From: Silvibacterium acidisoli
GTDB taxonomy: Bacteria > Acidobacteriota > Terriglobia > Terriglobales > Acidobacteriaceae
Direction of reading: 5' to 3'
Length of the DNA: 64,000 bases
NCBI GenBank assembly: GCA_022870745.1
Contig: CP085323.1
Location: forward strand, 3,038,001 to 3,102,000
A program made the position numbers and the translations under genes. This document shows, in pieces, positions 5,757 to 18,861 of the stretch. Below the pieces are notes generated by a model that did no database searches, was not told where the DNA came from, and saw only the letters and a list, made by a program, of their open reading frames with translations. Positions within the stretch are counted from its first letter, which is position 1; each line of letters opens with the position of its first letter.

Positions 5757-6119
5757 ATGCGCATCAAATTTGCGGAACTTCCCGTGTTCAATCAAGACAG
5801 GGCAAAGGCTTTTTACACAGAACACTTCGCTTGTCAGGTTGTCGCAGACGCTCCTATGGGGCCAGATAGTTGGCGTTGGATCGAGCTGCTGTTTCCAGGG
5901 ACAGAAACGACGCTGCATTTTCTCCAGCGCCCCGATGAGAACCCTTCCAAGGGACCAGTGATGGTGCTCGTGGATGACGATCTGGCCGGTGTCATCTCCC
6001 GTCTGAAGGCAAGCGGCGTGAAGGCCAATGATCCGAAGCCCGCGCCCTGGCAACCGGGGGTAACGGTTGCCGAGTTCTGGGATAGCGAAGGAAACCGCAT
6101 GGTTCTCAGCAGTCACTGA
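5757..6119 (+). CDS. VOC family protein
   Basis: A 120-residue VOC domain beginning MRIKFAELPVFNQDRAKAFY, with WRWIELLFPGTETTLHF in the first module and a C-terminal strand reading VAEFWDSEGNRMVLSS. It resembles the PhnB/glyoxalase-like group with no assigned substrate. Its promoter region carries two copies of the TetR operator. It is followed after 7 bases by a DUF1569 gene and then a coupled YdeI-like gene, so the three probably form an operon under TetR control. Confidence 0.85.
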   Translation: MRIKFAELPVFNQDRAKAFYTEHFACQVVADAPMGPDSWRWIELLFPGTETTLHFLQRPDENPSKGPVMVLVDDDLAGVISRLKASGVKANDPKPAPWQPGVTVAEFWDSEGNRMVLSSH

Positions 6120-6126
6120 GACCAGA

Positions 6127-6588
6127 ATGGGAGAGGCGCTCGTGAAGAACCTGTTTGAACCTTCTTGCGTAGCAGAGATCAAAGGCCGGATTGAACGTTT
6201 GCGGCCAAATAGCGAGAGGCACTGGGGCGTGATGTCACCTGCTCAGATGCTGGCTCATTGTTCTGCCTGGATGGAGATGGCTGCGGGACTTAACAAACCA
6301 CCCCGCAACTTCCTTGGGCGGATCGTAGGCAAGTTCGCGAAGAAGTCGATCTTGGAGAGACCCATCAAGAGGAACATGCCCACAGACAAGAGCCTGCTGG
6401 TTGAAGACGAGAGGGACTTTGCTACGGAGCAGCATCGGCTCCTCAGTTGGCTTGACAGATTTTCAGCCGCTGGACCAACAGGTTGCACAACTCACCCTCA
6501 CAGCTTCTTCGGCCACATGACGCCTATGGAATGGTCCGCGATGGGATACAAGCATCTTGACCATCATTTGAGCCAGTTCGGCGTATGA
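6127..6588 (+). CDS. DUF1569 (DinB-like) protein
   Basis: A 153-residue protein with RHWGVMSPAQMLAHCSAWM near residue 35 and a C-terminal HSFFGHMTPMEWSAMGYKHLDHHLSQFG. This is the three-histidine layout of the DinB/YfiT fold that usually binds a metal. Some DinB-like enzymes are thiol transferases, but no activity is known for DUF1569. The start at 6127 is chosen because it follows the VOC stop closely; the open frame before it overlaps that gene. Its stop overlaps the next start as ATGA. Confidence 0.8.
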   Translation: MGEALVKNLFEPSCVAEIKGRIERLRPNSERHWGVMSPAQMLAHCSAWMEMAAGLNKPPRNFLGRIVGKFAKKSILERPIKRNMPTDKSLLVEDERDFATEQHRLLSWLDRFSAAGPTGCTTHPHSFFGHMTPMEWSAMGYKHLDHHLSQFGV

Positions 6589-7181
6589 AGAAATCTGAAT
6601 CCCTTCCGACGCTGACCTTCAAGAGTTCGCGAGAGCTTCAAACCTACATGTCCGGCCAGCCGCGGGCGGCTGAAGGCTTTTGGCTCAAACTTTCGAAGGC
6701 CGGTGCGCCCGAGGCGACGATCTCAAGAGACGAAGCGATCGATACCGCGCTTTGTTGTGGCTGGATCGATGGTCAGCTCGCAAAGTTCGATGACTCGTAC
6801 TTCCTCATCCGTATGACTCCGCGCCGTGCAGGGAGCCGCTGGTCCGCGAAGAACCGCGCAGCAGTCGATCGTTTGGCAGGGCTAAACCGTCTCTTGCCAG
6901 CCGGCATTGACGAGATCAATGCTGCGAAGGAGGATGGCCGATGGGATGCGGCATATGCCTCGCAGGGTAAGGCTGAGCCGCCTCAAGATTTACTCGCGGC
7001 ATTGCGCTCGAATAAGGCCGCATTGCGTTTTTTCGAAGGGCTAGATCGCGCGAACCGATACTCAATCATCTATCGGGTCGGCGAAGCGAAGCGGCCTGAG
7101 ACGCGCGCCAATCGCATAGCAAAGTTCGTCGCAATGCTGGAGCGCGGAGAGACGATCCACCGATCCAAGAAGAAGGCGTGA
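6585..7181 (+). CDS. YdeI/OmpD-associated family protein
   Basis: A 198-residue protein with the family features: FWLKLSKAGAPEATISRDEAIDTALCCGWIDGQ early, then FLIRMTPRRAGSRWSAKN, and a C-terminal EAKRPETRANRIAKFV helix ending in a KKK tail. The molecular role is not established. It is translationally coupled to DUF1569 (ATGA overlap), which places it in the TetR-controlled unit. Confidence 0.85.
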   Translation: MKKSESLPTLTFKSSRELQTYMSGQPRAAEGFWLKLSKAGAPEATISRDEAIDTALCCGWIDGQLAKFDDSYFLIRMTPRRAGSRWSAKNRAAVDRLAGLNRLLPAGIDEINAAKEDGRWDAAYASQGKAEPPQDLLAALRSNKAALRFFEGLDRANRYSIIYRVGEAKRPETRANRIAKFVAMLERGETIHRSKKKA

Positions 7182-7194
7182 CGAAGACTGTGAG

Positions 7195-7359
7195 ATGACG
7201 ATGGCCCTGCTCGACTACATCCGGGTTGCCTTTACGATCCAGATGGCAATCGATGGTTACTACAGGAGCGTGGTTACCGACACGAATGATCTTCAACCCT
7301 TTGCAGTCGACTTGGGAGTGGTACTCGGACGCCTATGGTTTGGGATACGGGCTTACTAA
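7195..7359 (+). CDS. Small hypothetical protein (54 aa)
   Basis: A 54-codon frame beginning MTMALLDYIRVAF and ending VVLGRLWFGIRAY. It is mildly hydrophobic with a regular codon pattern and starts 13 bases after the YdeI stop, so it could be the last gene of that operon. I do not recognise a family. It may be a short real protein or the remnant of a longer one. Confidence 0.4.
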   Translation: MTMALLDYIRVAFTIQMAIDGYYRSVVTDTNDLQPFAVDLGVVLGRLWFGIRAY

Positions 7360-7390
7360 ACGATCACGTTCTGTTCAACGACTAAACACT

Positions 7391-7588
7391 ATGGCGCTTG
7401 ATCCAAAAAGCGATAAGCCGACACCGCTGTGGGAGAGTGTCCACAAGTGTCCCAGTTGCGATTACGAACTGAACCTCGAAAAAATCGACTTTCGAGGGGC
7501 AACGACCGGCATCGCCACATGCCCCCGATGCGAGTGGGAAGGTCAGATCAACGTGCAGATTGTCCTCTCTGAGCCGTCTGAGGACTAA
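7391..7588 (+). CDS. Small zinc-ribbon protein
   Basis: A 65-residue protein with two CxxC pairs (HKCPSCDYEL and TCPRCEWEG) about 24 residues apart, which make a one-zinc ribbon. The start at 7391 is an ATG just before this domain. The open frame before it overlaps the preceding small gene and has no protein character. The function is unknown; such ribbons bind nucleic acids or other proteins. Confidence 0.65.
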   Translation: MALDPKSDKPTPLWESVHKCPSCDYELNLEKIDFRGATTGIATCPRCEWEGQINVQIVLSEPSED

Positions 7589-7749
7589 CCATACTGGAGA
7601 CACTCTCATGCTACGTCGATGCGCGCGGTCACCTGCCGTCAGAGGCACGCACGCTCTGACCGAGGCCAATGCCAATCTCGGAGAACACCATCTCTGATCT
7701 GACTACTTTGAGCTCTTTCGGCGGCAGGCGGGAGAAGATACCGCGAGAG

Positions 7750-8685
7750 CTATGCAGTCAGCGCTATCGGAGACCGGGTGACTGCCGCGAGGTTACGAAG
7801 CTTTCGCATAAAGGTTCTTTCCAGCTCGCTGGTCACTTTTGACCTGTTCTCTCCAAGCGACACCAGATAGGTCTTTAGAGAAAGGGTTTCTTCGGCCAGC
7901 GGCCTTACCGTCACTCCATTGCGCGCCAACAAGAGGGCGCCTGCCTTCGTGAGAAAGGCGACGCTGTTACCTTCGAAGAGAAACGGAAAAGCCTCCTCTT
8001 GCGAGGTGATGTGCTGTACATCGGTGGGGGGCACCTTCTGCTGCTCTGCCTGTTGGATCAGTGCGTCGTAGAGTGGCGGGTGTAAGCGCCTCGCGAAAAG
8101 AATCCATCTCCGTTTGCGGAGATCATGCAAGGTGACGCTCGGTTGATTGGCAAGCTCATCTCCCCTCAGCATTCCTATATAGAACGGGCTTTCGGCGATT
8201 TGTACCTTCGTAATCTGCGCAGACGATGGCGGCTCATTGGCAATGGCGAGGTCGAGACGGCCAGACATCAACTCGTGGACCAGGTCATACGAGAACTGGC
8301 TCGAAACTTCTATCTTTAACTGCGGGTAGAGAGGCAGCCGTATGGACATCAGCATCGACAAGAAGAAAGGATCGGTATACGGAGATCGTCCAACGTGCTG
8401 CACGACATCGGCCTCTTGAGCAACCGCGAGGGCCGCAGTGAAGGCGCGTTCTCCATATAAAAGTGCTTTTCTCGCGTGTTCGACATAGGCGCGTCCAGCA
8501 TCGGTGACGCTGACCCCCTTGCGGTCCCGCACAAACAACTGCACACCCAGCGTGCGCTCCAGTGCCTTGATATTTTTCGTGATGGTGGATTGGCTGACGT
8601 TGATTTTGATGGCAGCCAACGTAAAGCTGAGCTCTTCGGAAAGAGCAACCGCCGATTCCATAAATCGTGTTTGATTGCGTGCCAT
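7750..8685 (-). CDS. LysR-type transcriptional regulator
   Basis: About 311 residues. The winged helix-turn-helix occupies the first 60 residues (FMESAVALSEELSFTLAAIK, then SQSTITKNIKALERTLGVQLF). A periplasmic-binding-protein-like effector domain follows, with SSQFSYDLVHELMSGRLDLAI as the usual marker. The ATG at 8685 is preferred; the frame extends to a GTG at 8724 without a ribosome-binding site. It is divergent from a second LysR gene with about 260 bases between them, in the arrangement of paralogous regulators. Its target is unknown. Confidence 0.9.
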   Translation of the reverse strand: MARNQTRFMESAVALSEELSFTLAAIKINVSQSTITKNIKALERTLGVQLFVRDRKGVSVTDAGRAYVEHARKALLYGERAFTAALAVAQEADVVQHVGRSPYTDPFFLSMLMSIRLPLYPQLKIEVSSQFSYDLVHELMSGRLDLAIANEPPSSAQITKVQIAESPFYIGMLRGDELANQPSVTLHDLRKRRWILFARRLHPPLYDALIQQAEQQKVPPTDVQHITSQEEAFPFLFEGNSVAFLTKAGALLLARNGVTVRPLAEETLSLKTYLVSLGENRSKVTSELERTFMRKLRNLAAVTRSPIALTA

Positions 8686-8947
8686 GATGATCCCTGCCTG
8701 CTCTGCGATGGAAGGCGGAACCACTGGGATGGGCCGATACGACTCCAGCTCAAGACGAGGATGATTCCGTCAGAGATGCTGTGGTTTAGACGCTCCTCTC
8801 TTTAAAGGACGTAAACATAAGGCGGCAGGACGCGGATTCGTTATTCCTTTTGGAATTTCGGAAATCGTTTCGGGAATTGGACTTTATCCAAGGCTTCATA
8901 GTCTCTTAGAGCACACCGGTGCACTTTGGCCGTCCAAGGCGGGTCTT

Positions 8948-9871
8948 ATGCAGAGCAGGCATCCATTGGAAGTCAATATTCTGGTCGTTATCATCGCACA
9001 GGAAGGCAGTTTTATCCGGGCTTCGAAGAAGCTGGGTATTGCGCCACCGTCGCTCACACGGAGGGTGGCTTCACTGGAAAGGAACATCGGAGTCAAACTG
9101 TTCAACCGGTCCACCCGTAGCGTGGCACTGACCGACGCGGGAAGGCTGTTCGTTCAGGAATCCTCTCTTTCCCTGAGCCACGCCGAACGCGCGTGGGACC
9201 TGGCCCGATTCCATGCGCAGACCGAGAGTGGTCCCTACCGTTTTGGATACTCTCCATACACCCACAGCGCATTCCTGCCACTCTTGAATGGATTGAGTCC
9301 TGCACCGCATCCGCCAGGGGATGAGCCGTCCAACATTGTTCTAGAGACCGCAAACACGGTCGAGCTGATAGAGCGGGTGCTTCGCGGTCAGCTTCACGCC
9401 GCGCTGGGGACAGGCCCCATCGTAGACCGGGACCTATGGGTGCACCGAGCCGGACGCGAGGGGTTTACGGTCTGCCTGCCGAGAGGCCACCACCTGGCTC
9501 AGAAGGCCAGCGTGACCGCACATGACCTTGATAGGGAAACAGTCTTCTGGATGCCGCGGTCGTCGCATCCGCGCTTCTACGGTCAGGTGATGAGATACAT
9601 CAGGAGTTTGGGAGTCCGACCCCTCTTCCGAGAAGTCAGGGGTGCAATGCACGCGCTTGAGTTCGTCGCCCGTAACTCCGGTCTGGCTCTGCTACCGCGT
9701 TCCGCATCCCGCATTTCTCATTCCGGGGTGGTCTTCAAGCCATTGGCAGACCGCTATCTCGGAATCGAAACCATGCTCTTCATGCGGCGCGATCTGCGCT
9801 ACGGAAAGCTCAAAGACATTGTCGATGTGTTTCTCGCCCAACTTCTTGCTCTCAAGATGGAGATCAATTAG
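8948..9871 (+). CDS. LysR-type transcriptional regulator
   Basis: A 307-residue regulator with an N-terminal helix-turn-helix (GSFIRASKKLGIAPPSLTRRV, ERNIGVKLFNRSTRSVALTD) and a LysR substrate-binding domain (EHALRGQL-type segment VIERVLRGQLHAALGTG region). It is divergent from the LysR gene at 7750-8685 and shares with it the motif order GYSPYTHSAFLPLL / GRSPYTDPFFLSML, so the two look like paralogues. A short broken lipoprotein gene and the defence island follow on the right. Confidence 0.9.
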   Translation: MQSRHPLEVNILVVIIAQEGSFIRASKKLGIAPPSLTRRVASLERNIGVKLFNRSTRSVALTDAGRLFVQESSLSLSHAERAWDLARFHAQTESGPYRFGYSPYTHSAFLPLLNGLSPAPHPPGDEPSNIVLETANTVELIERVLRGQLHAALGTGPIVDRDLWVHRAGREGFTVCLPRGHHLAQKASVTAHDLDRETVFWMPRSSHPRFYGQVMRYIRSLGVRPLFREVRGAMHALEFVARNSGLALLPRSASRISHSGVVFKPLADRYLGIETMLFMRRDLRYGKLKDIVDVFLAQLLALKMEIN

Positions 9872-10068: not shown

Positions 10069-11163
10069 CTAACTAAATGGAGCTTCGGTGGAAGCATCCT
10101 TCAAGATCTTGCGAATTTCTTGACGCAGCAATTTCTTGTTAAAGATTCCCTCAGCCTTTTCCGCTATGAGGGAGACGCGCGGATTCTTGTCCAGTGATGA
10201 ATGACTTGCGACAATCTCAGCGGCATTTGGCGACGCAACAATCAGCCTCAACCCTGAGTTTTTCTTCATACCCTGATCAATGATTTGGTTAATATGCTCG
10301 TCCGCGAAGCTATATCCAACCACAGCAAGAATCTGAGCTTTGAGTGTTGCCCTTGAAAAGTTATAGGCCAACGTCAGAAACGGTTCCTTGGCGGATAATT
10401 TATGCGCAGTACCAAAAACAAGGTGAGGACGGGTGTCATCCCCCTGCATCGTATCCGCGCTTTCATGTCGAGGATATGCGAGCGAACAGAGTCCATATAT
10501 AGGATCGTCAACCCAGTCGAGTGATCCGTGAAGCTTGAAAAGATTGATCCCGGAAGCGCTTGAGAAACTGTCGGGTGACCAGACCCCGTTTTCATCAAAG
10601 CCGTTTATAAACTTTTCCGAAGCCGCACTTAAGGCGCTTTCGACACACAGATCATAGTTCAGACTAAAAATATCGAGGCCTGAACCGTCTATACATAAAT
10701 CCTTTAGGCCCTCCAAATACGAAACATCCTTGGGAGTACGCAATTCCTCTTCGACAGAGCGATACGTGAAATCCAAAAATGAACTTAGCAGTTTGGAGTC
10801 TCTGGTTTCCAGATCTTCAATCCGCTTATGCCATCCGGCTGCATATGCCGCAAGGGGATTTTTGGTCCTATGGTGCAACTCTTCTGCGGCGATTGCTATT
10901 TGCTCAATATTTACAGGGCTTCCCGGATTTCTATTAAGGATCCCCTCCTGAAATCGCACTCCGCCTTCAAGGAAATGAAAAAGCGCAAGCCAGCGTTCAG
11001 CCTGTTCGCGTTCTGTCATGGCAACACTGGTGCCTTCGGATGTCGCCGCTCTTGTAAGCAGTTTCTCGCGGAGTCTCCTTGCCAACTCAACCGACATAGG
11101 TAAACCAGCATCCGCGCTCAAACCCGCGCCCGCGAGTAAAGCGATACGGGGTAGCTTGGTCAT
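10069..11163 (-). CDS. SIR2-family effector of an Argonaute system
   Basis: About 364 residues with a SIR2 Rossmann fold. It has LLAGAGLSADAGLP near residues 9-22, FSLNYDLCVE (the Asn-Asp motif) near 169-171, LFKLHGSLDW (catalytic His) near 212 and a late VVGYSFADEHIN. In known SIR2-linked Argonaute systems the SIR2 part depletes NAD+ after guide-dependent target recognition and causes abortive infection. Here it is a separate polypeptide with no APAZ extension. The start at 11163 gives an ATGA overlap with the MID-PIWI gene, so the two are coupled; a GTG three codons earlier is also possible. It is the last gene of the minus-strand island operon. Confidence 0.85.
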   Translation of the reverse strand: MTKLPRIALLAGAGLSADAGLPMSVELARRLREKLLTRAATSEGTSVAMTEREQAERWLALFHFLEGGVRFQEGILNRNPGSPVNIEQIAIAAEELHHRTKNPLAAYAAGWHKRIEDLETRDSKLLSSFLDFTYRSVEEELRTPKDVSYLEGLKDLCIDGSGLDIFSLNYDLCVESALSAASEKFINGFDENGVWSPDSFSSASGINLFKLHGSLDWVDDPIYGLCSLAYPRHESADTMQGDDTRPHLVFGTAHKLSAKEPFLTLAYNFSRATLKAQILAVVGYSFADEHINQIIDQGMKKNSGLRLIVASPNAAEIVASHSSLDKNPRVSLIAEKAEGIFNKKLLRQEIRKILKDASTEAPFS

Positions 11164-12473
11164 ATGAACCACATTCTTTCCTGTAGAAGCTGAAGCGAAG
11201 ATTCAGGAAGATTTTTTATACGTTCAGCGGCAATGTGGCTAAGCAGTCGAGCGATGAGTTCGCCATAGTAGTTGGAGATCGGTTTTGATCGAGCGTTGAA
11301 TCCACGCCAATTAACTTGGCTCAAATCATTGATCTGCCGGATAACCGTCTTAATGCCACCTGGATGTCGCGCTCCGCCCTGCGGTGTGATTCGCAGAGCT
11401 ACCGGTACTCGAAAATTTGCCCAAGACTCTTTCTCGTCGCGACCTTCCGTATATAGAAGGTAATCACGATCATTTATTTGCAAGATCGTGCCCCGATGCG
11501 GGATTCCATCTTTGAATCTCGTATCGACTGCAAAGAATGTTTCCTCTTCTGAAATCTTCACAACCACAATTTGAAGAATGTTTTGCTTTGCATGGTTCCG
11601 TACGGCCCCATACACAGCATCCATTTCTTCACGGCTCATGTGTTTGGGCACATGTAATGTCACCGAGGAAACAGTCCTGCCAATGGCTTCGGCACGCTTC
11701 AATGAGTTCGCGACTACGTTCTCTAAAAGTTTCAAGTACTTCTTGCGATCATCGGTCACTTCCGCCAATGCTACAAACTGAAAGGCGCCGCGGGCGGAAA
11801 AACAGGCTGTGAATCCCATGTAGCCAGTTGTCTGTCGGGATTGGGGATCAAATAAGTAAGAACGTCCAAGACCGATAATCAATTCTTGATCCAGTTCCTT
11901 ACCGTAAACAATCCATGGAGTGCCGCCAAGTTTAACAAACGCTCCCAAGGCAATGTTCGCTGCCGACCAGCGAAATTTGGCCTCATCGGCCAGGAGTTCC
12001 GCTGTGATGCTCTGGGAAAGTATGCCTTCCGCCAAAAGTCTTGCCTTGCAGGCGTAATAGGGAGTATCAGGCTCCGACGCGGAGGTTTGAGGATGGATGA
12101 TAAAGAACATGTGGGGCTTGGGATTCGACGCACCAGCATTCCAGTTCAGGATTGCTTCCTGATAGAGCTTCGCTGCATCATGGGGACTCTTGCCTCGAAT
12201 GCTAAAGCCGGTGACGGGAAATACTTGATCTTTAGTGAGTCGAAAGCGGAAGGTCGATTCAACACCCTTAAAAGAGCCGACACCGTTCTTCAGAGCTAGG
12301 AATAATCGGTTCGCATAATCGCGATACTCTGTCGGAAAGACAAAGCCAAAGATTGGATCCTCATCAAGCGCGCGATATGGACCAAATTCGACAAGTCCAC
12401 GGAGCTTATCCGGTCGACTCCTCTCGTTGCCGAAGGCGAATTGCACTGGCTGGAGTATGTGGCCGTTCACCAT
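11160..12473 (-). CDS. Prokaryotic Argonaute, MID-PIWI half
   Basis: A 437-residue protein. It begins in an L2/MID-like segment (LVEFGPYRALDEDPIFGFVFP). It has the MID guide-binding pattern YYACKARLLAEGILSQ near 139-154 and then a PIWI domain (LGGTPWIVYG, QTTGYMGFTACFS, VNWRGFNARSKPISNYYGEL) that ends in the hydrophobic WFI expected of Argonautes. The first catalytic Asp of the DEDX tetrad appears replaced: the usual GID-like strand reads IIGLG near 199-203. It is therefore probably a guide-binding, non-slicing Argonaute. It overlaps the gene before it by 7 bases and the SIR2 gene after it by 4, so all three are coupled. Confidence 0.85.
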   Translation of the reverse strand: MVNGHILQPVQFAFGNERSRPDKLRGLVEFGPYRALDEDPIFGFVFPTEYRDYANRLFLALKNGVGSFKGVESTFRFRLTKDQVFPVTGFSIRGKSPHDAAKLYQEAILNWNAGASNPKPHMFFIIHPQTSASEPDTPYYACKARLLAEGILSQSITAELLADEAKFRWSAANIALGAFVKLGGTPWIVYGKELDQELIIGLGRSYLFDPQSRQTTGYMGFTACFSARGAFQFVALAEVTDDRKKYLKLLENVVANSLKRAEAIGRTVSSVTLHVPKHMSREEMDAVYGAVRNHAKQNILQIVVVKISEEETFFAVDTRFKDGIPHRGTILQINDRDYLLYTEGRDEKESWANFRVPVALRITPQGGARHPGGIKTVIRQINDLSQVNWRGFNARSKPISNYYGELIARLLSHIAAERIKNLPESSLQLLQERMWFI

Positions 12474-13441
12474 GAACTCCCCAGCGTTGCTTCCATAGGG
12501 CTAAGACTTACAGCTAGTGAACCAGATTCGAACGATTTCAAAGGAACCACAAGCTGGTCTGTTGAAGAACCCGACTCCTGAAGTAGTTCACGAATCGCCA
12601 TCAAACGATCACGGAGCACCGTGACGCTTCGTCGATTATCCCTTGTGAGGCTCAGATTGAGTCTTTGAATCTCACGGACGACCGCTGAGGTACCCGATCT
12701 CCCTCTAACTTTACTTTCATATTGCTTGATAACGGCCGGCGAAGCTTCGAGCCGCAAATCTTGAAGAGAAATGACACGATGCTGATCGTCTTTACAAAGA
12801 ACCGTCGCGGTTCCATCACGTTCAACGCTTCTGATGCGACCAATGAAACGATTATGGAAAGGGGAAAGATCGCGTGAGATTGTTGCTCCTATAGGGCGGT
12901 ATAGAACTGGCATTCCTAACGCAATCCCCGCTAATGCCGGGTTCGCCAAACTTTCTTTGAAGTGAGCTTGAACGACCCATCGAAAAGCGACCGCGAATCT
13001 GTAAGCTTCTTCCCGGAATGGTCGTTGAACCAGAAATGAGATTCCTGTCGCTAGTTCGATAGCGTCATCCGGAGACATGCGATATGGGCGCAACGCGACA
13101 TTCTCAAAATGGCTTTGTTCAACCATAAAACCGCGTTGTGAGAAGTGAGATGCAAGTGCCTGTTCAGCCAACAAACTGCCGATTCGCCAAAATCTTCCAA
13201 TATCAAATGATCTGTGGGTCGCTCCGGTTGGAACCGCCAAACCATTCAAAAAAACCATTCGGATGCGCCTTGTGGATGAGCTTGCTTCGTCATCATCCAT
13301 TTCATAGCGCCACGTTTGGTAGTCGCCAAACTCGGAATCCCTCGCTTTCGTCGATTCGTCCCATGACGTGTAATCGAGGAACGGAAGCGATGGCTCGACC
13401 GGCATCAGATCCGCAGCGAAATTATTGATGACAACTTGCAT
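12467..13441 (-). CDS. Argonaute N-terminal half / APAZ-like subunit
   Basis: A 324-residue protein with no membrane segment. A central block reads ATGISFLVQRPFREEAYRFA then VAFRWVVQAHFKESLANPAL, followed by GMPVLYRP and a beta-rich region (RFIGRIRSVERDGTATVLC). This resembles the N/L1/PAZ-like or APAZ portion that precedes MID-PIWI in prokaryotic Argonautes. Its length plus that of the next protein (761 residues) is about that of a long Argonaute. The ATG at 13441 lacks a strong site but sits 27 bases after the endonuclease gene. The 7-base stop/start overlap could be a natural gene split or a one-base loss in a once continuous gene. Confidence 0.6.
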   Translation of the reverse strand: MQVVINNFAADLMPVEPSLPFLDYTSWDESTKARDSEFGDYQTWRYEMDDDEASSSTRRIRMVFLNGLAVPTGATHRSFDIGRFWRIGSLLAEQALASHFSQRGFMVEQSHFENVALRPYRMSPDDAIELATGISFLVQRPFREEAYRFAVAFRWVVQAHFKESLANPALAGIALGMPVLYRPIGATISRDLSPFHNRFIGRIRSVERDGTATVLCKDDQHRVISLQDLRLEASPAVIKQYESKVRGRSGTSAVVREIQRLNLSLTRDNRRSVTVLRDRLMAIRELLQESGSSTDQLVVPLKSFESGSLAVSLSPMEATLGSSW

Positions 13442-13468: not shown

Positions 13469-14134
13469 TCAATCCTCTTCGCCTTCGGCTGTGCCGATGT
13501 CTCCAGCCTCCTCCGTGGGAACAAGAGGTACAGCCTGCCCAGCAAAGTACTCCGCCAGTCTGGTACTCAGCGCTTCCGCAGTTAAACCTCCATCTGCGAG
13601 TTTCTCTGCGAATTTCCGTCCAGGATGCAACACATCCCACGGGGATTTGTATTGGGCTGCGCGTCGCATACCTGGATCTTTATTGCCAAAACCATCGACC
13701 ACCAAGTTCCAAATGGGCTTGAACTGTTCAATCATCATGTTTTCGCCAAGAGGAATCCAGATATCGTCCACCACCAACGAGCGATAACGGAAATCCGTTA
13801 CATCCAAATTTATCGCTTCATCTATAGAACTAGCGTGCTGTCGCAAGCGGTCACGCAAAGCCTTCCCCTTAGCCGCATCGAAAGCTAATCCGCCCTTACG
13901 TGCGCCTTTAGGAACCGCCTTACCTACATAGATAGGCTGCGAAAACTCTTCGTCACGATTCTTTTGAGCGACAGGTTGGTAAGGTGAAAACGACCCTATG
14001 TAATAGATCGCGTAAACGCCAGCACCGGCGAGCTCCGTTGTCTCTGTAAGCGGCGTCACTGGACGCAGCAGAAGAGCTTCCGCCACACTGCGTCCAAGGT
14101 TCAGTTTGTCGAGAGGATTATAGGGACTCTCCAT
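13469..14134 (-). CDS. Eco29kI-family type II restriction endonuclease (GIY-YIG)
   Basis: A 221-residue enzyme with the GIY-YIG pattern of the Eco29kI family: GVYAIYYIG near 39-47, PIYVGKAVPKGARKGG near 67-82, LRDRLRQH with the Arg and His near 96 and 100, and WIPLGENMMIEQFKPIWN with Glu and Asn near 131 and 143. Eco29kI cuts CCGC^GG. The specificity here is inferred only from the family and its methyltransferase partner. It follows the methyltransferase gene after 2 bases, so the pair is one restriction-modification unit. The acidic tail (EEAGDIGTAEGEED) is probably disordered. Confidence 0.88.
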   Translation of the reverse strand: MESPYNPLDKLNLGRSVAEALLLRPVTPLTETTELAGAGVYAIYYIGSFSPYQPVAQKNRDEEFSQPIYVGKAVPKGARKGGLAFDAAKGKALRDRLRQHASSIDEAINLDVTDFRYRSLVVDDIWIPLGENMMIEQFKPIWNLVVDGFGNKDPGMRRAAQYKSPWDVLHPGRKFAEKLADGGLTAEALSTRLAEYFAGQAVPLVPTEEAGDIGTAEGEED

Positions 14135-14136
14135 GC

Positions 14137-15309
14137 TTACTCATGTCCTCTCATCTTGAGCAAGGTATCAGCGACAGAACTTGCAACAACTTCAGCCAAC
14201 CGTACTGGTACGGCATTGCCAAGTTGACGCATCGCCTCGGTCCAAGCGCCCCGAAAAATATAGTCGTCGGGAAAAGTTTGAAGCCGCGCTGCCTCCCGCG
14301 TTGTGAAGTACCGTACCGAACCGTCCACTCTGGCAAGCATATTCTCACCGCCAGGTACACCGTGATCACCCGCTTTTAGGGTCTTGGCAGGCTCATCATA
14401 AGGGCTTCCTGTATGTCCGGGGTAGCTTCGAGCTCCCGGGCTAAAGACGTGGTTGGCAATGCCATTACGAGGTTGCTTCTCAGGATCCGGCAGTCCAACA
14501 AGTGCATCGCGCACAGTGAGCCATGGCTCTTTGCTGTCGTTCAACAGTTCGGCAAGCTTATCTACTCGGGCAGCTTGACGCAGAGCCAACGTAGGCCGAT
14601 GGCGTTTTGCTACTTTATGTCGATCCCAATACTCGCCGGTTATCCATTGCGAATGCAACAATGAATCCTCCGAATGTTTCTCCTCAGGAAAATTCCACTG
14701 CACTCCTAGGTCTGAACGGAACCCGACTAAAAATACACGCTCGCGGCGCTGTGGCACACCATAATTTGCGGCGTTCAGAAGACGAAAGACGACATTGTAT
14801 TCTGAGCGGACCCGTCGCGAGGTATGGTGGCGCTCTAGGCGAATACGGTGCTCTCCCCATGACTCATCCTTACGGCGGATCAAGTTTGGGTGGGTCAATT
14901 GCAAATGTATGTACTCGAAATAGTCTGCGAAGCTTTCGCGTAGAAGTCCCTTTACGTTCTCGAAAATGAAAGCCTTGGGGCGCAATTCACGTACGGCGCG
15001 CACGGCCTCAGGGAACATATCGCGAGCATCGAGATATCCTTGGTGCTTTCCCCCAAGCGAGAACGGCTGGCAGGGAGGACCACCAGATACGACCATGACC
15101 TCTTCGGAAATAGTGGAGTAGTCGAATTTCCGGACATCGCCTTCAAAAAGGGGCCACCGCTCAACGGAGCTCATATGATGTCGCTGATTCTCGCGAAATG
15201 TCTCGCAAGCATCGTGATTCCACTCGATGACAGCAGCATGATCAAAACCGGCATTCGCCATTCCTATGGCTAGGCCTCCCGCTCCCGCGAAAAGCTCGAC
15301 ACTACGCAT
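14137..15309 (-). CDS. DNA (cytosine-5) methyltransferase of the restriction-modification system
   Basis: A 390-residue enzyme with the C5-methyltransferase motifs in order: ELFAGAGGLAIGM (motif I) at the start, SGGPPCQPFSLGGKHQG (motif IV, catalytic Cys near 80), FIFENVKGLL (motif VI) near 115-123, a variable target-recognition region, YFTTREAARLQTFPDDYIF (motif IX) and QLGNAVPVRLAEVVA (motif X). It protects host DNA against the GIY-YIG endonuclease next door. Its start overlaps the Vsr stop by 8 bases. Eco29kI relatives suggest methylation within CCGCGG. Confidence 0.92.
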   Translation of the reverse strand: MRSVELFAGAGGLAIGMANAGFDHAAVIEWNHDACETFRENQRHHMSSVERWPLFEGDVRKFDYSTISEEVMVVSGGPPCQPFSLGGKHQGYLDARDMFPEAVRAVRELRPKAFIFENVKGLLRESFADYFEYIHLQLTHPNLIRRKDESWGEHRIRLERHHTSRRVRSEYNVVFRLLNAANYGVPQRRERVFLVGFRSDLGVQWNFPEEKHSEDSLLHSQWITGEYWDRHKVAKRHRPTLALRQAARVDKLAELLNDSKEPWLTVRDALVGLPDPEKQPRNGIANHVFSPGARSYPGHTGSPYDEPAKTLKAGDHGVPGGENMLARVDGSVRYFTTREAARLQTFPDDYIFRGAWTEAMRQLGNAVPVRLAEVVASSVADTLLKMRGHE

Positions 15310-15709
15310 CGAGGAACCTCCTTATCACTTGCTTCAGCCGCTCGATATCCTTCAACTCGCACTCCCAAATGGTCAAAACTTTCCAGCCATCTCTCATCAA
15401 TAGTTCTGTGTTTCGTGCATCACGTTCTTTATTGGCTTGAAGTTTAGGCTCCCAAAAGTCGAGTCTTGATTTCGGCATGCGCGCAAGGGCGCAATTTTCG
15501 TGACGATGCCAAAAACATCCATGAACAAATATGACCTTATTGCGACCTTTGAAAACAAGGTCGGGACATCCCGGCAATTTCCGTCCATGTAAGCGATAGC
15601 GATAACCTGCCGCGAAGACAAGTTTCCGAACCGCCATTTCTGGCTTGGAATCCTTCGCACGAACCCGCGACATAATTTCTGATCGCTCGGAAGGTGGAAT
15701 GTTGTCCAC
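15302..15709 (-). CDS. vsr: Very short patch repair endonuclease (Vsr)
   Basis: About 135 residues with the Vsr signature: SRVRAKDSKPEMAVRKLVF, then YRLHGRKLPGCPDLVFKGRNK (catalytic Asp in CPD), VIFVHGCFWHRH (active-site His residues) and RDGWKVLTIWECEL. Vsr nicks DNA at T:G mismatches made by deamination of methylated cytosine, so it accompanies C5-methyltransferases. The start is taken as a GTG at 15709 with GGGAG about 7 bases upstream. It lies just after the RHH stop; the open frame extends further but overlaps that gene. Confidence 0.9.
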   Translation of the reverse strand: MDNIPPSERSEIMSRVRAKDSKPEMAVRKLVFAAGYRYRLHGRKLPGCPDLVFKGRNKVIFVHGCFWHRHENCALARMPKSRLDFWEPKLQANKERDARNTELLMRDGWKVLTIWECELKDIERLKQVIRRFLDA

Positions 15710-15713
15710 ACGA

Positions 15714-15908
15714 TTACGCTCCCTCTGGGCGGCCAAAGAGTGGCCATTTGCTCGCGATATATTGTTCTGCCGCATCGCGCATCACCCATGCCAAGGACAC
15801 CTTCTTCTCGCGCGCAATGCGCTCCAGCGTCTGATGAACATCAGGCGCCAGCGTCACGGAAACTCGCGAAGTCCCGGGTTTAGAACTCGGATCTTTGATG
15901 GAGGGCAT
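15714..15908 (-). CDS. Ribbon-helix-helix regulator of the restriction-modification operon
   Basis: A 64-residue protein: a basic N-terminus, SRVSVTLAPDVHQTLERIAR (strand and first helix) and KVSLAWVMRDAAEQYIASKW (second helix), in the Arc/CopG fold. The ATG at 15908 has AAAGGAGG 8 bases upstream; a longer frame to 16115 has no such site. It is the first gene of the minus-strand operon and probably plays the timing role that C proteins play in other restriction systems. A set of three 7-bp repeats with 10-bp period lies just upstream as its likely operator. Confidence 0.8.
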   Translation of the reverse strand: MPSIKDPSSKPGTSRVSVTLAPDVHQTLERIAREKKVSLAWVMRDAAEQYIASKWPLFGRPEGA

Positions 15909-15926
15909 TCGGAACCTCCTTTCAGT

Positions 15927-15953
15927 TGCAGCAAGATGCTGCAGAGTGCTGCA
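15927..15953 (-). promoter_or_regulatory. Tandem operator: three 7-bp TGCAGCA/TGCTGCA repeats with 10-bp period
   Basis: On the plus strand TGCAGCA is at 15927-15933 and TGCTGCA at 15937-15943 and 15947-15953, separated by 3-base spacers. Starts exactly 10 bases apart put all copies on one face of the helix. That is how Arc/CopG-type dimers usually line up. The array sits 19-45 bases ahead of the RHH start, so autoregulation is likely. Confidence 0.65.
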
Positions 15954-16145
15954 TTGATCTCTGAGGATTGTATCGAGTTCCCCCACTGTGGAACAGTGTG
16001 AAACAATTATTTTGCCTTGTCGCACTTCGAAACTGGCCTTCATGTTGGACATTGACTTTATAAGCCGTGTGCAATCAATGAGATCGATCAAAGAGGATCG
16101 AGTTCGCATTCTCACGGATAAAGGGAAAACTGCTGCGGCGGAGCG

Positions 16146-17408
16146 GTGAGTGAGATGAAGAAACGGATCAAAGGCGCATGGCTTTTACATCATGGGCGGA
16201 AACTGCAAGCGACGACAAATCAAGATTTCGACGCAATCTCCTTTTCCAGCAAATGCGGTATTTTGCTGTCAGCCATTTCAGGTGAGCAGCAAACCTCGAT
16301 ACTTCAGCAGCGAATGGACGCCTTGGCTCGCGCAAATCAGATAAGCGCGAAGACCGAAGCGCCAGCGATATTAGCGGAGCTTGAAAAACAACGGCTCATC
16401 GCCAAGGGCAAAGGCGGCTATGAAGTGCTCGGTATAACCGGACAAGCTGTTCTTGAGCACACTGCAACGATTTTTGAAGATTCCGCTCCGCAATCTCATG
16501 AACGTGCCGTAATCGACATCGCTGAAAAAGTATCCGACGAGCCGATAACGGATCGCATAGCCTCGGAGATGGTTGGAGATACGTATAAGCTGCCGAAGGC
16601 GGAAGCTGAGAGTGCCCTTCTGTTAGGCGAAAAGATTGGCTTCTTTGATTCCGAAGTAATCTCCAACAATGAGAAGTTGCTATTCAATGGCAATTTATTT
16701 CGCCGGGACAACCTTAAAAAGGTCAATGCCGTCCTGAGTTCCTTGAAGCCGGACGAGTCCAAACTCGTCGTTGAGCTTAATGAAAGACTTCAGGCTTCCG
16801 GTTGCCTTCCCCTCCCAGTAGTGACCCACCTCCTAGGGCAAGCGCTGTTCGATAAGCTCCATTCTATTGGCATGTTGGATGTGAGCGTAGTGGGTAACGA
16901 CACTGGCAAGACTTACTTTGTAACGCGTCCCGCAGCATTTTCAAAGTTTACTAATTCAATTGCTGACGATGCGCTTGACTTGGCTAAAGCGCTTGTAGCC
17001 TCTCTCACATATGGGATGACGATCAGTTCATATTCACGCGGACGAATCCGAATGATTGAAGCGTTGATGAACCGGCTTATAGCAGGAGGCAGCATCGGTC
17101 CCGCAACGGCAATCGGTAATGACTACCAGGCATTAGAACTGAAGGGTGTTGTCGAAGTTAAGCCTGCATATGGCGGGATGTTCTACATGAAACTTCTCAA
17201 GCCCGAAGTGGGGCGACTGGCGCTAACAGTAATTCAGGACGGCGACATCACCGCCGAAAGCATCCAGCAGCTCCCAGGCGCAGCCGTGACCGAATATATA
17301 CATCCTGAAGCAACCCGTGAAGTAAAACGAAAGAATTCGACGCAGGCGACCAAGACAAGTGCGCGTAACCTCCTCAACGAAATCAGAACTGGGGGGCTAT
17401 CGAAATGA
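16146..17408 (+). CDS. Unassigned protein of the defence island (420 aa)
   Basis: A 420-residue soluble protein that I do not recognise. It looks alpha/beta with repeated winged-helix-like blocks. One is LQQRMDALARANQISAKTEA followed by LEKQRLIAKGKGGYEVLGIT; another, near the C-terminus, is IGPATAIGNDYQALELKGVV followed by VEVKPAYGGMFYMKLLKPE. It ends in a basic, disordered stretch (KRKNSTQATKTSARN). The GTG at 16146 has a GGAGCGG site; an ATG three codons on is possible. It is divergent from the restriction operon and overlaps the next gene by 4 bases (ATGA). A DNA-binding sensor or specificity subunit for the nuclease is a guess from context. Confidence 0.55.
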   Translation: MSEMKKRIKGAWLLHHGRKLQATTNQDFDAISFSSKCGILLSAISGEQQTSILQQRMDALARANQISAKTEAPAILAELEKQRLIAKGKGGYEVLGITGQAVLEHTATIFEDSAPQSHERAVIDIAEKVSDEPITDRIASEMVGDTYKLPKAEAESALLLGEKIGFFDSEVISNNEKLLFNGNLFRRDNLKKVNAVLSSLKPDESKLVVELNERLQASGCLPLPVVTHLLGQALFDKLHSIGMLDVSVVGNDTGKTYFVTRPAAFSKFTNSIADDALDLAKALVASLTYGMTISSYSRGRIRMIEALMNRLIAGGSIGPATAIGNDYQALELKGVVEVKPAYGGMFYMKLLKPEVGRLALTVIQDGDITAESIQQLPGAAVTEYIHPEATREVKRKNSTQATKTSARNLLNEIRTGGLSK

Positions 17409-18436
17409 CAGAGATAATGGCAAAGGGTCCAAAGGCGGAAGAAGCCTTGAGAAACTATTTCGTCGGGGCCGGCTTCTTTGTAGTGCGTGGATGTAAATTC
17501 CGGTTCAATCAGTTTGACGTAACCGATATCGACATTTGGCTGTATAGCAAAACGTCTCCGCTTGGCCGCCAACGATTGAACGTCGATATAAAAAACAAAA
17601 AAACGCCACAGGCCCTTGAACGAATTTTTTGGGCCAAGGGTTTGCAGTCCGTCCTCGAACTAGATGGATGCATCGTCGCCACGACTGATACACGTCCAGA
17701 TGTGAGAGAGTTCGGTTTACAGCACGAAGTCACAGTGCTGGACGGCAAATTCCTCGCGAGGCTAACGAAGAACGGGCGTACGCCTTCTCAACGAATTAGC
17801 GAAGAGGAATTACTTGTGGAACTGGAGCAAGGATCCATGGGCAAGCTGGGAGGAGACTGGAGAGGGAGATATGAGTTAAGTAAATCACGGCTCCTCACGT
17901 CACTGACCTTCGACGGAAGCAATGCGTGGCTTCAAGATGTTGCATATTTTCTTGAAGCATTTGCCACAGCCCATGCTCCGCAGCCGACGCTCTTACGAAT
18001 GGTGTACATCTGTTCCGCATATTTTTTGGTCTCAGTCGATTTCATTCTTCGCGAACATGTAGTCGCGGAACATGAGCAGCGCAGAGAACTGCTAGATAGC
18101 GGCTTTCGTTACGGTTCTGCCGGCAGGGCTTTCACTGAGAAGGTTGGTCGGATGGCTGCAAGTCTTGTAGAAGGTGTTTCGAACCAAGTTGGTATAGGGG
18201 AAACAATCGTACAGGAGCTTGGTGAACAGGTTAAAGTCATCAGGGCGGATTTATTGGCTGACTTTTTTTCTCGGACGTCTACACATAGCTACCTCTTCGA
18301 AATGGCTAAGGATTTCGAGTCTGCCGCTTTTGCGGTGTCTGTTCCAACCCCATCCCAGTTGCCATCACAAACCCAATCCGTTCTTGGCGTGTTTGCCGAT
18401 TTTTGCTCATTGGATCGGAAGCGAATCCTTGTGTAA
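17405..18436 (+). CDS. Putative PD-(D/E)xK-like nuclease of the defence island
   Basis: A 343-residue protein. Residues 10-100 fit a restriction-endonuclease fold: an N-terminal helix with Glu 12 or 13 (KAEEALRNYFVGAGFFVVRG), then TDIDIW with Asp 43 and LNVDIKNKK with Asp 61 and Lys 63 (DxK). After that come FWAKGLQ and a predicted strand reading DGCIVATTDTRPDVREFG. The last 200 residues are helical with no recognised domain. The coupling to the 420-residue protein (ATGA overlap) suggests that the two act together. Assigning nuclease activity is inference from the motif order. Confidence 0.5.
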   Translation: MTEIMAKGPKAEEALRNYFVGAGFFVVRGCKFRFNQFDVTDIDIWLYSKTSPLGRQRLNVDIKNKKTPQALERIFWAKGLQSVLELDGCIVATTDTRPDVREFGLQHEVTVLDGKFLARLTKNGRTPSQRISEEELLVELEQGSMGKLGGDWRGRYELSKSRLLTSLTFDGSNAWLQDVAYFLEAFATAHAPQPTLLRMVYICSAYFLVSVDFILREHVVAEHEQRRELLDSGFRYGSAGRAFTEKVGRMAASLVEGVSNQVGIGETIVQELGEQVKVIRADLLADFFSRTSTHSYLFEMAKDFESAAFAVSVPTPSQLPSQTQSVLGVFADFCSLDRKRILV

Positions 18437-18456
18437 ATGGAATTAGAGAATTAGCC

Positions 18457-18861
18457 ATGAAAACGAGCACGGTCGTTGGTCGTAGATCTCTAATGGGAAC
18501 TCAGTTTCCCCTCAAAATCGAAGTTAAAGTCGAATCCTTGGACTATGGCCCGCATACCGGAGGTTTTGGAAAGGTCTTCTCTTTGATGTTTGGAGATCGG
18601 CGGCAGTATGTCTTGCGTATTGGCCGAGGCAACCGATCCACGAAAACGGGAACTTATGTTTTCAATCTTCCACCAGACTTTGGAGGACTCCCCCTATTCG
18701 AACAAGCGAAAGCTCTCATTACAGAATTCGTTCGAATCAAAGGGGAAGAGGCCGCTTCGCAAGGTCGTCCCGCAATGCCTCTCTATGGTTTCTACTACGA
18801 TTCAAAGGGTGAAGTTCTGATTAGCGAGGATGAAATTCATTGTGATGAAGGCGAATGGTAA
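18457..18861 (+). CDS. Unassigned small protein following the nuclease-like gene
   Basis: A 134-residue protein with regular codon use and no recognised family. It is beta-rich in the first half (PLKIEVKVESLDYGPHTGGF, RQYVLRIGRG) and helical in the middle (FEQAKALITEFVRIKGEEAA). The end is acidic (ISEDEIHCDEGEW). It starts 20 bases after the nuclease-like gene, so it is probably the third member of the unit, and it is the last gene before the right flank of the island. Confidence 0.5.
   Translation: MKTSTVVGRRSLMGTQFPLKIEVKVESLDYGPHTGGFGKVFSLMFGDRRQYVLRIGRGNRSTKTGTYVFNLPPDFGGLPLFEQAKALITEFVRIKGEEAASQGRPAMPLYGFYYDSKGEVLISEDEIHCDEGEW

Follow-up and report, generated by a model that had tools for sequence, protein, structure and literature searches.

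The question raised by this locus is whether two coupled genes that match no catalogued family, and that lie beside a restriction operon, form an immune system of their own. The genes, termed here gene 1 and gene 2, were found in a 64,000-nucleotide stretch of the Silvibacterium acidisoli genome (contig CP085323.1), referred to below as the window, where they are followed by a short third open reading frame (ORF). From a reading of the letters alone, the original prediction had proposed a three-gene candidate new defence system. That proposal is retained here in a reduced form: a two-gene pair, a nuclease motif and a mobile, defence-rich context stand, and the third gene does not. Altogether, the evidence makes it somewhat better than an even prospect that the pair is a mobile two-gene defence system acting by DNA cutting.

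The two genes were recovered from the sequence and the ORF list with the coordinates and the ATGA overlap originally given, and their cohesion extends to relatives. A scan of one genome per species yielded 106 relatives of gene 1, from which 80 loci were kept (L021-L100); viral contigs contributed 11 gene-1 loci, and 98 loci were examined jointly. In 96 of them gene 1 is immediately followed by gene 2, detected by tblastn in 92, by alignment in three from Actinomycetes, and by profile comparison in L020 (probability 97.8, E 1.2e-12), where it carries a long N-terminal extension; in the remaining two (L076 and L077) the contig end falls inside gene 1. Among plasmids, tblastn matched gene 1 in 10 records; gene 2 was matched in 7, each time next to gene 1. 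Spacing was compared in 92 pairs, that is, the 98 loci minus four duplicates and minus the two without gene 2. A four-base overlap was found in 53 and a one-base overlap in 27 (80 of 92 combined), four pairs overlap by 26-38 bases, seven are separated by 0-7 bases, and a single gap of 185 bases is owed to a stop in gene 1. Furthermore, the evolutionary distances of the two genes are correlated (r = 0.923, n = 62 pairs, with 0 of 2000 permutations reaching that value), and the two genes therefore travelled together. Distant relatives of gene 2 can be longer, as in L019 (11293-13014, 573 residues) and L020 (11250-13037, 595 residues), the nuclease domain of the latter beginning near residue 225.

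The third ORF behaves otherwise. No relative of this 134-residue protein was present in any of the 98 loci or in the plasmids, none turned up in the scan of viral contigs, and within its own genome it matches only itself. It was left out of the unit for this reason, and the three-gene arrangement was rejected.

Searches by sequence placed none of the three proteins. No family was reached at E <= 1 in Pfam or PADLOC 2.0.0; the only matches in NCBIfam and PHROGs, three at E 0.20-0.23, were taken as noise; and profile searches of PDB sequences gave one and zero matches at E <= 1, the one being Rpb6 (E 0.44), likewise noise. Membership of a known family was thus rejected at the level of sequence, in agreement with the earlier statement that no known defence family was recognizable.

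Structure prediction was more informative for gene 2. Its AlphaFold (AF2) model, built on 68 homologues with a mean predicted local distance difference test (pLDDT) score of 91.7, divides into a PD-(D/E)xK core at residues 7-112 and an all-helical part at 133-342 with no assigned fold. The core follows the αβββαβ order typical of the superfamily (H7-21, E25-34, E37-49, E55-63, H70-83, E88-93). The residues named originally (Glu 12 and 13, Asp 43 and the motif D61-x-K63) are present and conserved, and the predicted fold agrees with them: E12, E13, D41, D43 and K63 occur in 68 of 68 homologues, and D stands at position 61 in 67 of them, the exception having E. In a set of nine gene-2 sequences that includes three from Actinomycetes, E12, D41, D43 and K63 are kept in 9 of 9, position 61 is D in six and E in three, and E13 is E in only four. 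The glutamates at position 61 belong to the three Actinomycete plasmid copies and keep the (D/E)xK rule. The matches to AF1548, Can2 and EndoMS fall within residues 1-128. The best VIA match is AF1548 (PDB 1y88; Z 12.8, root-mean-square deviation 3.0, 111 residues aligned), followed at Z about 10-11 by Can2, EndoMS, VC1899, Cdn1 and a Pyrococcus repair endonuclease; Foldseek ranked MspJI (E 4.5e-3) and AspBHI highest, with none at E <= 0.001. By predicted fold and conserved motif, gene 2 is therefore a PD-(D/E)xK nuclease whose activity is predicted.

For gene 1, the winged-helix likeness noted at first sight was extended to four predicted copies. The AF2 model (65 homologues, pLDDT 80.9) shows four successive helix-helix-helix-wing units at approximately residues 28-96, 99-181, 190-262 and 274-352, with bounds read off the model; since each unit combines three helices with a beta-wing, the model amounts to a row of four winged helices. 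Conservation is highest in the fourth unit. Its mean share of the commonest residue is 0.67, compared with 0.50-0.55 for the others, 13 of 21 invariant residues tallied in five segments are found there, and it contains the motif GPATAIGxDYxxLExKGVV, which we take to resemble the recognition-helix pattern of winged helices. In structural comparisons, the best VIA score was Z 7.2, for single winged helices; PerR, SarX, ORC and others were matched over one domain at Z 6-7, below a telling level. The best Foldseek match was RPC62, a subunit of RNA polymerase III (E 2.7e-4), with a template-modelling (TM) score of 0.15 and a poor overlay.

The pair is rare and widely scattered. Among genomes related to that of the window, 1 of 200 carried it, and the figures were 3 of 399 for the class and 3 of 395 for the phylum; each count includes the window's own genome, and those for class and phylum share one further genome (G336). 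A tree of 65 rows spans 14 phyla, one of them archaeal, and plasmids add Actinomycetota to give about 15; the archaeal homologue stands on a 6.5 kb Lokiarchaeota metagenome contig and may be a binning error. Phyla are intermixed in the tree (19 label changes against a minimum of 13) and still clustered (shuffled mean 28.0). In E. coli, an allele with 43% and 37% identity to the window proteins occurs in 22 of 5426 complete genomes; the copy in a tRNA-Pro island corresponds to WP_023142848 and WP_023142847. Both genes are annotated as "hypothetical protein" in all annotated records inspected except that of Pseudarthrobacter, where gene 2 is called a "response regulator".

Carriage on mobile elements recurs across this range. 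Plasmids bearing the pair come from Vibrio, Mesorhizobium, Rubrobacter, Pseudarthrobacter, Rhodococcus and Streptomyces, and on the Mesorhizobium plasmid the pair stands beside an Eco57I-type methylase and an N-6 methylase. In five predicted prophages (L011-L015) it runs opposite to the late-gene direction, between baseplate genes and tail-completion/tail-terminator genes; the flanks of L011 and part of L014 were tested, and the others were judged from gene sizes. The surrounding gene order is presumably P2-like. Among deposited phage genomes (50,697 records) there was no match to gene 1, although predicted viral contigs carry it. The P2 hotspot described in PMC9122126, gpA-gpQ, differs from the site occupied here. 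All four E. coli regions inspected are islands with integrase or relaxase genes. For instance, the pair accompanies an ABC-three-component (ABC-3C) system in a tRNA-Pro island, follows an integrase, a DUF3732 three-component system and an Hxs operon in NCTC9040, and occurs with Hxs, a relaxase and two integrases in XJ5.2.

Two features of these islands were recorded in passing. In two of them (L135 and L136, both 6017-9414), the Hxs (His-Xaa-Ser radical SAM) operon, with a DUF6119 or TIGR04141 gene, adjoins the pair, and in the tRNA-Pro island a 682-residue protein with no Pfam match at E <= 0.001 lies downstream of it (L102, 14298-16346).

Defence genes are enriched near the pair relative to matched controls, though they were seen in a minority of the probed loci. 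Proximity was assessed in 47 of the 80 genome loci, picked for long contigs. The N6-methylase family PF02384 fell within 20 kb of the pair in 10 of 82 hits, from 9 of the 47 genomes, against an expected 0.77, a Poisson figure that assumes an even spread and rounded genome sizes, two of the ten near hits being probably one ORF. For a control family, the aminotransferase PF00155, a single hit lay within 20 kb among the best-scoring matches listed, read by eye. At E <= 1e-8, the 146 genes within 5 kb of the pair in 20 genomes matched 254 PADLOC models and 132 control genes 100 kb away in the same genomes matched 14, a ratio that overstates the difference because models and not genes were counted. 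Among the matches listed, the neighbours included GajA, LmuA/B/C, type I restriction genes and a dCTPase. Over 91 loci, the recurrent neighbours were an ABC-3C operon, directly upstream in seven, together with GajA/GajB, LmuB, DUF1016 (PDC-S02) and integrases. Clustering by blastp, which could split far-diverged families, placed no neighbour family within four genes of the pair in more than 7 of these loci. The cognate methyltransferase that marks type I and type II restriction-modification does not recur with the pair, and the window's own C5 methylase is part of the divergent Eco29kI operon.

The upstream ABC-3C operon is of the DUF2326 kind (PDC-M68A/B; candidate PDC-M68) and was seen in L055, L056, L057, L060, L061, L091 and L098. 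Its hosts, together with the pair, include Pseudomonadota and a Planctomycetota bin, as if a single mobile cassette were involved, and the small gene that precedes the operon in several loci is presumably RelB-like.

Several observations weigh against a DNA-cutting defence pair and temper the figures above. Seventeen defence probes matched in 24 of the 80 loci (flanks of up to 10 kb; LmuB in six, GajA in five, DUF1016/PDC-S02 in six) and in none of 20 control stretches, but 11 of the 17 probes had been drawn from these loci or from their records, 8 of the 24 positives had themselves supplied a probe, and the control stretches amount to 0.16 Mb compared with 1.35 Mb of probed sequence. The other 56 loci, several of them on short contigs, match none of the probes. 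C5 methylases (PF00145) gave 0 of 41 hits within 20 kb in the 47 genomes, where 0.33 were expected, a count that leaves out four further rows representing second pieces of one gene. The PADLOC controls were not empty either, with single components such as RtcR, QatD, ZorB, a phospholipase effector and an LmuA model (1.7e-12). In gene 1, the structural matches are weak and the model is only moderately confident. Its winged helices are not notably basic (lysine plus arginine about equal to aspartate plus glutamate) and domain 2 is acidic, so that it is not evident that all four contact DNA directly. Binding to proteins is common among winged helices, and with no clear excess of basic residues these units may touch protein as readily as DNA.

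The original prediction had named two outcomes that would speak against it, namely homologues of a housekeeping kind or homologues mostly outside defence contexts. The housekeeping outcome is not borne out by a rare, patchy and mobile distribution; for the other, the enrichment (Gabija, Lamassu, ABC-3C, type I restriction-modification) stands beside the probe-negative majority of loci. With mobile carriage and enrichment beside known defence genes taken together, a defence role is very likely.

How such a pair might work is suggested by its nearest relatives in fold and architecture. Fusion enzymes of the PD-(D/E)XK-winged-helix type include the endonuclease DpnI. Those named FcyTI and Psp4BI, type IV enzymes dependent on N6-methyladenine, resemble the pair in joining a winged-helix sensor to a PD-(D/E)xK nuclease, usually without an adjacent methylase; they are single chains, whereas the pair has two chains, four predicted winged helices and no family match, and is present in hosts with Dam. 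In PMC11037411, single-chain enzymes of this composition are described as preferring Dam-methylated DNA. Can2/Card1/Cdn1 and EndoMS/NucS are among the closest folds to the gene 2 nuclease domain (Z about 9-11 over about 100-118 residues), at 10-17% identity, and gene 2 differs from them in placing the nuclease domain first and the helical part after. Can2/Card1-type nucleases carry a CARF domain. AF1548, an archaeal protein of unknown function and the best structural match, shares 8% identity with that domain, and we know of no AF1548-associated counterpart of gene 1. RPC62/RPC3 is a tandem winged-helix array, and its likeness to gene 1 is architectural only, with no homology claimed. Shedu (SduA), Lamassu LmuA and Upx gave weak VIA matches to the nuclease domain (Z 6.7-7.9), and these have accessory domains and partners other than those of gene 2.

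In the proposed mechanism, gene 2 would be a metal-dependent PD-(D/E)xK nuclease whose helical part may be regulatory or partner-binding, and gene 1 would read DNA, or a DNA-bound state of the invader, and position or license the nuclease. The partner of gene 2 is not a methylase, because no neighbour family is found with the pair often enough. Self would then be spared without a dedicated methylase, so that the trigger would be something on phage or plasmid DNA that the host chromosome does not show; possible triggers include modifications other than Dam-GATC, replication forks, DNA ends or a phage protein. We infer the complex of the two proteins, DNA as its target, the trigger and the protective outcome alike. 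In its full form this proposal has a reader built of four winged helices that would bring a Card1/NucS-type nuclease to invading DNA, or unlock it there, with no methylation mark, nucleotide messenger or guide; this form is tentative and somewhat short of an even chance.

Modification-dependent restriction of a type IV-like kind, in which gene 2 would cut once the winged helices had detected a modified base, N6-methyladenine for example, is an unlikely alternative, yet one that several observations favour. MspJI and AspBHI are the top nuclease matches in Foldseek, and no methylase is a constant partner. E. coli, Vibrio, Shewanella and Brenneria carry Dam. The pair is open in all four, where a trigger at Dam-GATC would be suicidal and is hence unlikely; in addition, N6-methylase genes are enriched near the pair and not depleted. 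A winged-helix sensor with a PD-(D/E)xK nuclease is also what the fusion enzymes offer, and cases of potential conflict are listed for these in PMC11037411. The main rival, to which a slightly smaller share of belief is given, is abortive infection of a toxin-antitoxin-like kind. Gene 2 would damage host DNA or RNA once free, and gene 1 would be a repressor or inhibitor that senses infection. A two-gene operon with the putative regulator first, and the co-inheritance of the genes, fit this explanation; winged-helix proteins are commonly regulators, and Lamassu, Gabija and ABC-3C are of the self-sacrificing or conflict type. A free toxin should be costly, however, and gene 2 stays open beside a broken gene 1 in 3 of 92 pairs: in-frame stops interrupt gene 1 in two metagenome bins (L031, 10001-11260; L063, 2824-4090), and in an isolate (L089, 318-1400) it lacks about 70 N-terminal residues. 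Likewise, on the Vibrio plasmid pHZ52-3, ISVa2 splits gene 1 (L137, 2004-4329) and gene 2 is identical to that of the intact plasmid. These broken copies weigh against a toxin, with the caveats that sequencing error is possible in bins and that lost translational coupling may silence gene 2.

Competition between mobile elements was rated a little lower again. Here the pair would act against plasmids or serve element maintenance, shielding the plasmid, prophage or island that carries it against competing mobile DNA, as its carriage on plasmids of six genera, in P2-like prophages and beside relaxase or integrase genes in E. coli would suggest; chromosomal loci next to anti-phage systems also carry the pair, which speaks against it. 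This explanation overlaps with the DNA-cutting defence system preferred above, from which it differs in the target alone. A housekeeping pair for DNA repair or recombination, with no defence role, is very improbable. The resemblance of the gene 2 fold to EndoMS/NucS favours it, but it was rejected on distribution: the pair is carried by fewer than 1% of sampled genomes related to that of the window, is spread over about 15 phyla in a mixed tree and has a mobile context in the annotated records inspected.

Within the window, the features of the locus are collected in the following table. As originally described, the pair diverges from a restriction operon, whose Vsr, C5 methylase and Eco29kI genes were recognised by Pfam, and beyond this operon lie a 324-residue ORF, a PIWI ORF and a SIR2 gene.

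Features of the locus and its surroundings in the window (positions counted from the first letter of the window)
Feature	Position	Strand	Basis or remark
Gene 1 (P0001), 420 residues, GTG start	16146-17408	+	ORF list, translation
Gene 2 (P0002), 343 residues, ATG start	17405-18436	+	ORF list, translation
ATGA stop/start overlap coupling genes 1 and 2	17405-17408	+	Sequence
Third ORF (P0003), 134 residues, orphan, judged outside the unit	18457-18861	+	ORF list, homologue searches
Intergenic stretch between the ribbon-helix-helix gene and gene 1; expected place of divergent promoters	15912-16145	.	Sequence
Ribbon-helix-helix (CopG-like) gene heading the restriction operon	15714-15911	-	Inner ATG start is our reading; ORF called 15714-16115
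Vsr gene of the restriction operon	15302-15775	-	Pfam/PADLOC
C5 cytosine methylase of the restriction operon	14137-15309	-	Pfam/PADLOC
Eco29kI-type nuclease of the restriction operon	13469-14134	-	Pfam/PADLOC
ORF of 324 residues, no family assigned	12467-13441	-	Library searches
PIWI-half argonaute ORF, 437 residues, pAgo_II type	11160-12473	-	PADLOC
SIR2 protein, Aga_SIR2	10069-11172	-	PADLOC

A consensus scan gave no sigma-70-like match within the intergenic stretch. An empty-site comparison showed that the regulators flanking the island are mostly absent or distant in genomes of the same genus. As a separate observation, the argonaute of this neighbourhood (11160-13441, minus strand) is spread over two overlapping ORFs, the PIWI half and the 324-residue ORF. 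The PIWI half aligns with long argonautes from about residue 300 onward, and the 324-residue ORF could be the N-terminal half, giving either a split long argonaute with a SIR2 partner or a frameshifted one.

As regards novelty, no paper was found by accession and none titled on this pair by topic, supplementary tables being outside the reach of these searches. The DefensePredictor study (PMC13092281) describes the validation of 42 systems from E. coli, and of 31 of these, 13 have PD-(D/E)XK domains; the accessible text of PMC9519451 names no such gene pair. An earlier listing, for example among the DefensePredictor systems, is conceivable but rather unlikely, and the pair is probably an undescribed defence system. 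What would be new is nuclease-based defence with a separate multi-winged-helix partner. If this is correct, the pair would represent a compact two-gene immune module spread across about 14 bacterial phyla on plasmids, prophages and islands, and a solution to the distinction of self from non-self that needs neither a methylase nor a guide. The E. coli allele makes the question directly testable in the laboratory.

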